From: Salinirussus salinus
GTDB lineage: Archaea > Halobacteriota > Halobacteria > Halobacteriales > Haloarculaceae
DNA: 64,000 nt
Assembly: GCF_009831455.1 (NCBI RefSeq)
Contig: NZ_WOWO01000001.1
Location: 496,001-560,000, forward strand
Direction of reading: 5' to 3'
The notes beneath the pieces are model-generated. The model was given only the letters and a program-made list of their open reading frames with translations, did not search any database and was not told where the DNA came from. Each line of letters opens with the position of its first letter. The first letter of the stretch is position 1. The translations under genes and the position numbers were made by a program. This document shows positions 51,363-53,694 of this stretch, piece after piece.

Positions 51363-52088
51363 TTACATGTACGCGGAGTCCCACCGCGTGGGCTTGCGGG
51401 CGTTGCCACAGGCGTCACACTGGATCCGCCCCATCGGGTCCATCGCGTTCGAGAGGCTCTCGCAGTTCGAACACCAGTAGCCGTAGAGGTCCTCCCCGTC
51501 CTCGCTGGTGTAGACGACGTCGAACGGCGCCACTGACCCCCGCTCCTGGTCCTCGTGGTCGACGTAGACCGTCCGCCCGTCGTCCTCGACGGGCTCGAGG
51601 CGGACCTGCTCGTCCTCGGCGTAGACGTTCTCGACGTGCGGGGTGCCGTCGATCTCCACCTCGGTCTCGCCGACCTTCACGAACCCCTGGCGCTCGTAGA
51701 AGGCGTTCCCGTCGGCGTTGTCGGCGAGCACGCGCCCCCGGAGCGTGGCGGCGCCGCGTTCGGCCAGCCGGTCGCGGGTCGCCTCGAACAGCTGCTGGCC
51801 GTAGTCCTCGCTGCGGTAGTCCGGGTCGACGTGGAGCCACAGCAGTTCGGCTGTCCCCTCGCCCGTGACGACGCTGTCGGCGAACCCGACGACCTGGTCG
51901 CGGTGTTCGGCCACCAGCAACAGCTTCCCGTCGTCCTCCAAAACGTCCATCAGCCGACTCTCGTCGTACCACTCCTCGATGGCCCCGACGATCGTCTTGG
52001 GGTCGAGCGAGTACGACGCCTGCATCGACCGCCGCGCGACGTCCCGGATCGAGGGTCTGTCTCCCGGCCTCGCGGTGCGGACCTCCAT
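51363..52088 (-). CDS. GNAT acetyltransferase fused to a zinc-ribbon domain (DUF5816-like)
   Basis: 241 aa. Residues 1-150 form a GNAT N-acetyltransferase: ELLWLHVDPDYRSEDYGQQL is the acetyl-CoA loop and NADGNAFYERQGFVKVGE the C-terminal strand. Residues about 168-241 form a separate domain: SVAPFDVVYTSEDGEDLYGY, then WCSNCESLSNAMDPMGRIQC with a final CGNARKP, a C4 zinc ribbon. The same domain occurs alone at 56470-56709. The zinc ribbon may direct the enzyme to a protein or RNA target. Confidence 0.88.
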   Translation of the reverse strand: MEVRTARPGDRPSIRDVARRSMQASYSLDPKTIVGAIEEWYDESRLMDVLEDDGKLLLVAEHRDQVVGFADSVVTGEGTAELLWLHVDPDYRSEDYGQQLFEATRDRLAERGAATLRGRVLADNADGNAFYERQGFVKVGETEVEIDGTPHVENVYAEDEQVRLEPVEDDGRTVYVDHEDQERGSVAPFDVVYTSEDGEDLYGYWCSNCESLSNAMDPMGRIQCDACGNARKPTRWDSAYM

Positions 52089-52122: not shown

Positions 52123-52283
52123 CACCACCTGACCAACACGACCCGGAACCCGGCCGCCGGGCCGTGACCTGGCGCCCGAACACCTGTCATCTGTTCTTAC
52201 TTTCCGCCGGATCTGCCCGTCCGGACAGCGCTGACCCGGTTGTCGTAACGCTAAAGAGTCAAACAGACCTTCAAGTAAGCAAG

Positions 52284-52328
52284 ATGAACAACGCACGCGC
52301 CGTTTGGAGGGGGTACTGTGGGTGTTGA
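52284..52328 (+). CDS. 14-codon upstream ORF (possible leader peptide) before the HD gene
   Basis: ATG at 52284 opens a 14-residue frame, MNNARAVWRGYCGC, ending TGA at 52326-52328, inside the first codons of the HD gene. The codons for Trp-Arg lie on the strong ribosome-binding site GGAGG used by the HD gene, so ribosomes translating the short frame would cover or expose that site. The peptide is rich in costly residues (Trp, Tyr, two Cys). This could be a leader peptide or a chance frame. Confidence 0.4.
   Translation: MNNARAVWRGYCGC
52306..52310 (+). promoter_or_regulatory. Shine-Dalgarno site deciding the HD gene GTG start
   Basis: GGAGG, extended by four more Gs in the next positions, lies 8 nt before the GTG at 52318. 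This supports GTG as the start in a genome where many genes look leaderless. Confidence 0.65.
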
Positions 52329-52995
52329 GATCCAGGAATCGCCGGTCTCCGAGGAGGAGTTCGCGGCGATGGAGGAGTTCGTCCGGGATTACCTCACTGC
52401 CAGCGTCGAGAGCGAGGAGGAGGGCGGCCGGATGCGGTGGTACCCCTGGCACTCCGCGGAGTACCGGTTCAACCACATCCGGAACGTGGTCGAACTCTCG
52501 GCGGAGATCGCCGAGGCCGAGGGGGCGAACACCGACGTCACCCGCGTCGCCGCCCTCTTTCACGACATCGCCAAGCTGGAGGTCGAGCAGGACGTCCACG
52601 CCGAGGAGGGTGCCCGGATCGCCCGGGAGTACCTCACCACGCACTGCGACTATCCGGACTCGTTCGTCGACCAGGTGTGTGACGCCGTCCGGGACCACTC
52701 CTACCAGGGCGACCTGACGAGGCTCCCGCTCGAGACCCAGTGTCTCATCGAGGCCGACGTCCTCGACAAGGTCGGGGCAAACGGCGCGGCGCTGATGATG
52801 TTGCGGATGGGCTACGAGTCCCGCACGCACATGGACGCCGCCGAGATGGTCGGCCGGGTGCTCGAGCGCGGCGAGGACGCGAAGGAACGCATCGAGAGTC
52901 AGACCGCCTACGACATCGCCCACCGGCGGCTGAAGCGCGTGGTCTGGTTCCGCGAGTGGCTCGACGACGAGGTCGCCGAGGTCGACCTGGAGTAG
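52318..52995 (+). CDS. HD-domain phosphohydrolase
   Basis: A 225-aa metal-dependent hydrolase starting at GTG (VGVEIQESPVSEEEF). HD-fold ligands: His in YRFNHIRNVVELS, the HD pair in AALFHDIAKLE, His in DAVRDHSYQGD and Asp in LIEADVLDKVG. Conserved MRWYPWHSAEYRFNHI is distinctive of the archaeal members. The family acts on nucleotides or phosphodiesters; substrate unknown. It lies behind a 14-codon ORF that overlaps its start. Confidence 0.9.
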   Translation: MGVEIQESPVSEEEFAAMEEFVRDYLTASVESEEEGGRMRWYPWHSAEYRFNHIRNVVELSAEIAEAEGANTDVTRVAALFHDIAKLEVEQDVHAEEGARIAREYLTTHCDYPDSFVDQVCDAVRDHSYQGDLTRLPLETQCLIEADVLDKVGANGAALMMLRMGYESRTHMDAAEMVGRVLERGEDAKERIESQTAYDIAHRRLKRVVWFREWLDDEVAEVDLE

Positions 52996-53013: not shown

Positions 53014-53694
53014 CTACAGCAGCGTCCCCGCGGCGTCCCAGAGGAAGGCGACGCCGAAGCCCGCCAGCACGGCCGCGCTCACGCCGGCGACGATGGGCGT
53101 CGCCCGGTCGACGCGCCGTTTCCCGGCCACCAGCAGCGCGGGGAAGCCGACGATCCAGACGAGGATCCCGGCAAAGAGGCCCACCAGCAGCGCCGGGCTC
53201 CCGGTCCGGACGACCAGCAGGCCCGAAAGCGCGTCGCCGACGTAAGGGGTCTGTGCGAGCACGTCGACGGTCCCCGGCCGGAGGAGGCCGACGCCGACTG
53301 TGAGCCAGAAGACGACCTGGTAGGGGTTGGTCAGCGCGAGCACCAGCGCCTTCCGGAAGCCGGCACTTCTCCCCGTCGACTCCTCGGGGGCAAGCGTGGC
53401 CGTCACGTCGCGGGCGGCGCCGTACGCGAAATAGAGCATCAGGAGGCCGCCGACCCCGACCATCCCCGCCCGCAGGAGGGGGACCCGGTCGACGACGGCC
53501 ACCGCGCCGGCCAGCGAGAGCAGGAAGAAGGCGGCGTCGGCGGTCATCGCGCCCAGCCCGGCGGTGAAGCCGGCCCGCCAGCCGTGGACAACGCTCTCCT
53601 CGGCGATGACGGCGTTCATCGGGCCCGGCGGGGCCGCGAGCGCGAGGCCGAAGACGGCGCCGGCGGCGAGCGTCGTGACCGTCTCGAAGACCAT
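53014..53694 (-). CDS. LysE/RhtB-family exporter
   Basis: A 226-aa membrane protein with six helices. The LysE-family opening is GLALAAPPGPMNAVIAEESV, followed by GWRAGFTAGLGAMTADAAFF and the conserved ALTNPYQVVFWL. The family exports amino acids and similar small molecules. It may be last in a minus-strand run with the two following membrane-protein genes (gap 30 bp). Confidence 0.9.
   Translation of the reverse strand: MVFETVTTLAAGAVFGLALAAPPGPMNAVIAEESVVHGWRAGFTAGLGAMTADAAFFLLSLAGAVAVVDRVPLLRAGMVGVGGLLMLYFAYGAARDVTATLAPEESTGRSAGFRKALVLALTNPYQVVFWLTVGVGLLRPGTVDVLAQTPYVGDALSGLLVVRTGSPALLVGLFAGILVWIVGFPALLVAGKRRVDRATPIVAGVSAAVLAGFGVAFLWDAAGTLL

Follow-up and report, generated by a model that had tools for sequence, protein, structure and literature searches.

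What does an open reading frame of 14 codons do when it runs into the start of a longer gene? We examined this question for a short upstream open reading frame (uORF) in front of an HD-domain phosphohydrolase-like gene (HD gene) of Salinirussus salinus, located in a 64,000-nt stretch of genomic DNA (the window). A preliminary description of this DNA had reported the uORF, its 11-nt overlap with the HD gene and a GGAGG motif inside it, and had suggested that it works either as an attenuator of the leader-peptide type or as a switch for coupled re-initiation. The 14 codons, the overlap and the GGAGG motif (52306-52310, within the uORF) were all found as described (Table 1). The HD gene product matched the Pfam HD domain with an E value of 6.9e-15, and the closest solved structures, 2pq7 and YedJ (3gw7), are HD hydrolases. 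The gene was found in 255 of 255 good-quality genomes sampled from the order. It is flanked by a divergent gene for a GNAT acetyltransferase with a C-terminal DUF5816 domain (51363-52088, minus strand) and a convergent gene for a LysE-type exporter (53014-53694, minus strand). The same genome encodes a second, distant HD-domain protein (G000:C3:152267-152650, minus strand; 37% identity over 124 aa).

Table 1. Annotated features of the HD locus (positions in the window).
Feature	Position	Strand	Description
Short uORF MNNARAVWRGYCGC	52284..52328	+	14 codons; ATG at 52284, TGA at 52326-52328; 11-nt overlap with the HD gene
HD-domain phosphohydrolase-like gene	52318..52995	+	225 aa, GTG start; Pfam HD PF01966, HDIG TIGR00277
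Shine-Dalgarno GGAGGGGG of the HD gene	52306..52313	+	Within the uORF; consensus GGAGGTGG at -12 to -5
Promoter-like box TGTCGTAACGCTAAAGAGTCAAAC	52241..52264	+	Core CTAAAG at 52251-52256; conserved spacing to the uORF ATG
Predicted transcription start (leaderless mRNA)	52280..52284	+	0-4 nt 5' of the uORF ATG; inferred from the box and an H. volcanii statistic
HD Val3 GTT plus GA of Glu4	52324..52328	+	Rare Val codon creating the uORF stop TGA

To estimate how widely the uORF is conserved, HD loci were drawn from a named genome collection as well as from the family and the order. Once these had been oriented and stripped of duplicates, the set comprised 186 start-aligned loci; cases in which the automatically chosen upstream ATG had a weak context were listed as a check on that choice. 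An upstream ATG was present at 185 of these 186 distinct haloarchaeal loci, 31-68 nt 5' of the HD start, and was followed by A in 184 of the 185 (typical context GTAAGATGA). The uORF thus keeps a strict AUG (185/186), whereas the HD gene itself starts with GTG, ATG or TTG, the initial base being G in 76% of loci. A Shine-Dalgarno-like (SD-like) motif was detected at 170 of 187 HD loci, and the positional profile of 185 loci placed GGAGGTGG at -12 to -5. An out-of-frame upstream ATG whose ORF ended in the interval from -2 to +21 relative to the start was found at 182 of 187 distinct HD loci; the same layout occurred at only 3 of 90 GNAT, 1 of 62 LysE and 1 of 10 DUF502 genes, which served as control neighbours at the same loci. 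We concluded that the uORF is real and far beyond chance expectation.

The arrangement was kept in deep lineages whose HD proteins are 43-50% identical, and the uORF was present in 15 of the 16 sampled families having an HD locus. The exception was family f15, in which the uORF ATG was not found in either of two genomes (loci L287 and L288) and the HD gene was kept. When the 120 nt upstream of the HD gene were examined in these two loci, the leader carried CAGGTGA near an ATG start. Judged from these leaders, the uORF is dispensable in f15. At one locus of family f9 (L295, genome G180) the search read the HD gene through one TGA, reflecting an assembly error or a broken copy.

The uORF was in frame with the HD gene at none of 185 loci; 148 loci had it in frame 2 and 37 had it in frame 1. 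When changes were counted on an HD protein tree, uORF distance had shifted at least 36 times and frame at least 12 times, with fewer changes on well-supported branches. The loci are related by descent, and sister pairs on supported branches were too few for significance, with the direction nearly always as expected. Since both ATG distance and frame shifted repeatedly and the HD frame was never entered, the uORF appears free to move between two out-of-frame states and never extends the HD protein. An N-terminal extension of the HD protein was ruled out by this use of two frames. What proved conserved among relatives, in place of the peptide that the preliminary description had looked for, was the exclusion of the HD frame together with the stop.

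We next determined where the uORFs end. Termination fell 4-20 nt within the HD gene for 180 of 185 uORFs, and two ended just before the start, at -1. The most frequent ends in frame 2 (n = 148) were +11 (86 loci), +17 (50) and +20 (8), and in frame 1 the end was at +16 in 35 of 37 loci. Variation was seen among families: in f2 the uORF ended at +4 in two genomes (an ATGA overlap of 4 nt) and at +11 in two others, in f9 at +16 or +20, and in f11 at +25. The stops at +11, +16 and +17 depend on a rare codon of the HD gene (Val3 GTT, Ile5 ATA or Ile5 ATT). GTT made up 160 of 3579 Val codons in HD gene bodies vs. 84 of 144 at Val3 of frame-2 loci. Among 1449 gene-body Ile codons, ATA and ATT were used 38 and 70 times, respectively; ATA occupied Ile5 in 32 of the 37 frame-1 loci. 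Frame-2 loci used GTT at Val3 or else ATT at Ile5, the latter in 49 of the 60 loci with Val3 GTC. The stop-making solutions were thus varied (GTT-GA, ATT-AG/AA, ATA-A/G and GTG-AGG/GTA-AGG). In three lineages (loci L244, L247 and L248) Ile5 was replaced by Val with codon GTG or GTA before AGG, which still gave a stop in the uORF frame (TGA or TAA).

These frequencies were compared with two null models. When synonymous codons were drawn from gene-body usage, a stop by +20 was expected at 13.0 ± 3.4 of the 148 frame-2 loci and at 1.8 ± 1.2 of the 37 frame-1 loci, vs. 144 and 36 observed; in the frame not used by the uORF, stops were near expectation. The stricter model permuted codons within codon positions, preserving the codon usage of the 5' end (3000 permutations). 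Here 180 of 185 loci were observed vs. 103.6 ± 4.7 expected (maximum 120), and for 39 representatives below 80% identity the observed number was 36 vs. 21.7 ± 2.2 (maximum 29). An AT-rich codon bias at the 5' end is therefore insufficient as the cause of the rare codons. The uORF was open up to the HD start at 183 of 185 loci, vs. 139 ± 5.7 after shuffling; 5' of the HD start, 2 of 2014 codons in the uORF frame were stops vs. 42 of 1866 in the third frame. These codon statistics give good support for selection that keeps a uORF stop just inside the HD gene. Such selection makes sense only for a translated uORF, and codon choice is therefore strong evidence of uORF translation with obligatory termination at the HD start.

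A promoter-like box of about 20 nt was conserved through most haloarchaeal families and was confined to the region preceding the HD gene. The distance from this box (TGTCGTAACGCTAAAGAGTCgAAC) to the uORF ATG was fixed at 32.5 ± 1.1 nt, whereas the distance to the HD start was scattered (69.4 ± 5.9 nt). The exact box occurred as a single copy in the S. salinus genome, with two-mismatch matches at the control rate. Allowing one mismatch, 23 of 57 family genomes carried one copy each, beside the HD gene, and the reversed control gave none. With one copy per matching genome and the remaining matches at the control rate, the box was rejected as a regulon motif; it may be the site of a dedicated regulator. 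It differs both from the usual haloarchaeal TATA motif and from the TTWT element that has been proposed (PMC4983044). Should its core function as a TATA-like element, a transcript start about 27 nt from the box centre would fall 0-4 nt 5' of the uORF ATG. In Haloferax volcanii, 72% of coding transcripts are leaderless (PMC4983044). The HD transcript is likewise predicted to be leaderless and to begin at or just before the uORF AUG.

We propose that the uORF is probably a minimal leaderless first cistron which delivers ribosomes to the HD gene by termination-reinitiation. Ribosomes would start at the 5'-terminal AUG of the predicted leaderless mRNA, read about 10-30 uORF codons of irrelevant sequence, and pass the Shine-Dalgarno and start codon of the HD gene out of frame. 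They would usually terminate 4-25 nt within the HD gene. The terminating ribosome would then be held by the Shine-Dalgarno and re-initiate a few nt back at the HD start (GTG, ATG or TTG), making HD synthesis dependent on uORF translation (translational coupling). As judged from the aligned loci, selection evidently acts on the uORF start, the out-of-frame overlap and the stop window, and not on the peptide; we infer the leaderless start, re-initiation and an activating net effect. In H. volcanii, a Shine-Dalgarno motif in a 5'-UTR does not bring about de novo initiation (PMC3986360), and overlapping gene pairs are strictly coupled, the Shine-Dalgarno contributing to a different extent in different pairs (PMC6728339). 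The HD gene is laid out like the downstream member of such a pair, in that the uORF stop lies at or over the HD start and the HD Shine-Dalgarno lies inside the uORF, and the upstream member has only a few codons; hence our interpretation of the uORF as a leaderless first cistron followed by re-initiation. What speaks most against coupling is that the usual HD overlap of 11-20 nt is longer than the typical window of -8 to +6 nt for termination-reinitiation in H. volcanii (PMC10666635). Such an overlap requires the ribosome to move back by 5-14 nt, a step that may set a low, steady HD yield. Of the two mechanisms named in the preliminary description, coupled re-initiation is well supported, since the ATG and the out-of-frame overlap are conserved and the stop position is under selection; the attenuator is not, and is considered below with the other explanations.

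In a leader-peptide attenuator, slow decoding of Trp, Arg, Tyr and Cys codons would control access to the HD start. The S. salinus uORF does end in W-R-G-Y-C-G-C, and Trp, Arg and Cys recur near these positions at other loci. However, the recurring R-R-W-x-C-G corresponds to CGG AGG TGG xxx TGT GGG, i.e., to the Shine-Dalgarno and start codon read in frame 2. Arg, Trp and Cys recur because GGAGGTGG and the TGTGGG start region are read out of frame, and in frame-1 lineages the same region gives other residues, such as EVDTWVSR or RRDLSWASK. The codons that the preliminary description had taken as a signal are thus mostly imposed by the HD start region. That description had also looked to a conserved peptide with synonymous third-base changes for support, and this was not found: codons 2-7 of near pairs carried 54 non-synonymous vs. 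18 synonymous codon changes, a threefold excess in an N-terminal half that varies without constraint, and near pairs of the -34 class differed at codon positions 1, 2 and 3 in 23, 32 and 35 cases. A hairpin hiding the Shine-Dalgarno gave no signal (unpaired probability 0.337 vs. 0.363 with shuffled flanks), and an Rfam search returned no match. On this evidence we regard the attenuator as highly improbable. A functional micropeptide would account for the conserved start and stop, but the uORF peptides vary in sequence and in length (9-30 aa), and purifying selection on them is absent as far as these codon changes tell; we give this idea hardly any credence.

The chief rival of re-initiation is a uORF that acts as a brake. 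Once loaded at the leaderless AUG, ribosomes would sit over the Shine-Dalgarno and start codon of the HD gene and compete with direct initiation there, the stop near the start would let them clear the gene, and HD output would rise when leaderless initiation falls. The sequence evidence for translation and overlap also fits a brake, and mutations of 5'-terminal uAUGs in Escherichia coli alter downstream expression to varying degrees (PMC4965119). A brake would not need a stop within 4-25 nt, however; a stop before the Shine-Dalgarno would suffice, yet early uORF stops are almost absent. There would also be little direct initiation to compete with if, as in H. volcanii, Shine-Dalgarno motifs in 5'-UTRs attract no ribosomes (PMC3986360). 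A brake explains less well than re-initiation why the uORFs neither stop early nor run on, and we consider it unlikely. Alternatively, the uORF might be untranslated, with GTAAGATGA serving as a DNA or initiator element, or with the transcript starting downstream, and the frame incidental. The ATG does have a conserved context and a fixed distance from the promoter-like box, and at some loci a TTTATA-like sequence lies about 11-16 nt before it. This motif is not conserved, and a DNA element leaves unexplained both the open frame and the compensating rare codons that make stops in two frames; an untranslated element is accordingly very unlikely. A programmed frameshift from the uORF into the HD gene, yielding an N-terminally extended protein, would suit the out-of-frame overlap, but use of both non-HD frames would require shifts in opposite directions, and the HD gene has retained its own Shine-Dalgarno and start codon. 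We find it scarcely credible.

The type of mechanism is already known from coupled genes, 5'-uAUGs and synthetic bicistronic designs, and the HD case is a variant of it in 15 of 16 sampled families. Overlapping pairs of H. volcanii likewise have overlapping cistrons with the downstream Shine-Dalgarno inside the upstream frame (Huber 2019, PMC6728339; 2023, PMC10666635), and the two deep f2 genomes share with them the standard 4-nt ATGA overlap. Those pairs overlap by 1-8 nt, whereas the upstream cistron of the HD gene has 9-30 unconserved codons and an overlap of mostly 11-20 nt. Leaderless uORFs with a 5'-terminal uAUG in E. coli (Beck 2016, PMC4965119) are also short, with the AUG at or near the 5' end (as predicted here) and a downstream gene with a Shine-Dalgarno; they were identified from transcript ends and have mixed downstream effects, while the HD uORF has a stop under selection and has been maintained across an archaeal order. 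Short coupled uORFs, including leaderless mycobacterial ones (discussed in PMC12548453 and PMC4633059), and bacterial leader genes (PMC4833913) share a short first ORF thought only to drive the next gene, although the leader genes of PMC4833913 are defined as non-overlapping and the HD uORF overlaps its gene and contains the Shine-Dalgarno. Nearly the same blueprint is found in synthetic bicistronic designs, among them a leaderless one (PMC10367133) and a nonsense ORF with an internal ribosome-binding site (PMC13255528); unlike these, the HD arrangement is natural and ancient. Short ORFs also precede normal haloarchaeal genes in long 5'-UTRs of H. volcanii (PMC4983044), but these 16 uORFs lie in leaders of 150-250 nt, and the table in that work describes no gene as an HD protein. 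The literature searched contained no natural case of a sequence-free first cistron conserved across an archaeal order.

Pattern searches of the S. salinus genome for similar architecture gave eight matches, one of them the HD locus (control, 4), and three matches (control, 0), with no clear repeat among those checked. At one of these, locus L284, near position 1500, a 14-codon frame accompanied by GGAGGTGGT ends in TGATG, one base into a 495-aa ORF. This frame is probably the ordinary end of an upstream gene, and it could be another short coupled frame.

To our knowledge, archaeal uORFs have rarely been shown to be conserved. At the HD locus the start, the exclusion of the HD frame and the stop can be traced through 15 families, with synonymous codons of the HD gene bent to hold the stop. 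The signature of rare codons at a gene start making out-of-frame stops can be scanned for genome-wide. The locus is a natural counterpart of the synthetic bicistronic design. The HD gene also offers a clean test of how the ribosomes of haloarchaea, seemingly without Shine-Dalgarno-driven de novo initiation, use the Shine-Dalgarno in re-initiation. A more far-reaching interpretation, which we offer tentatively and hold to be rather doubtful, is that a sequence-free first cistron has been kept since the ancestor of the order, that a universal HD enzyme is obligately re-initiated from a leaderless start, and that HD expression senses the translational state of the cell. If this is true, HD output would depend on how leaderless (70S) entry and ribosome recycling are balanced.
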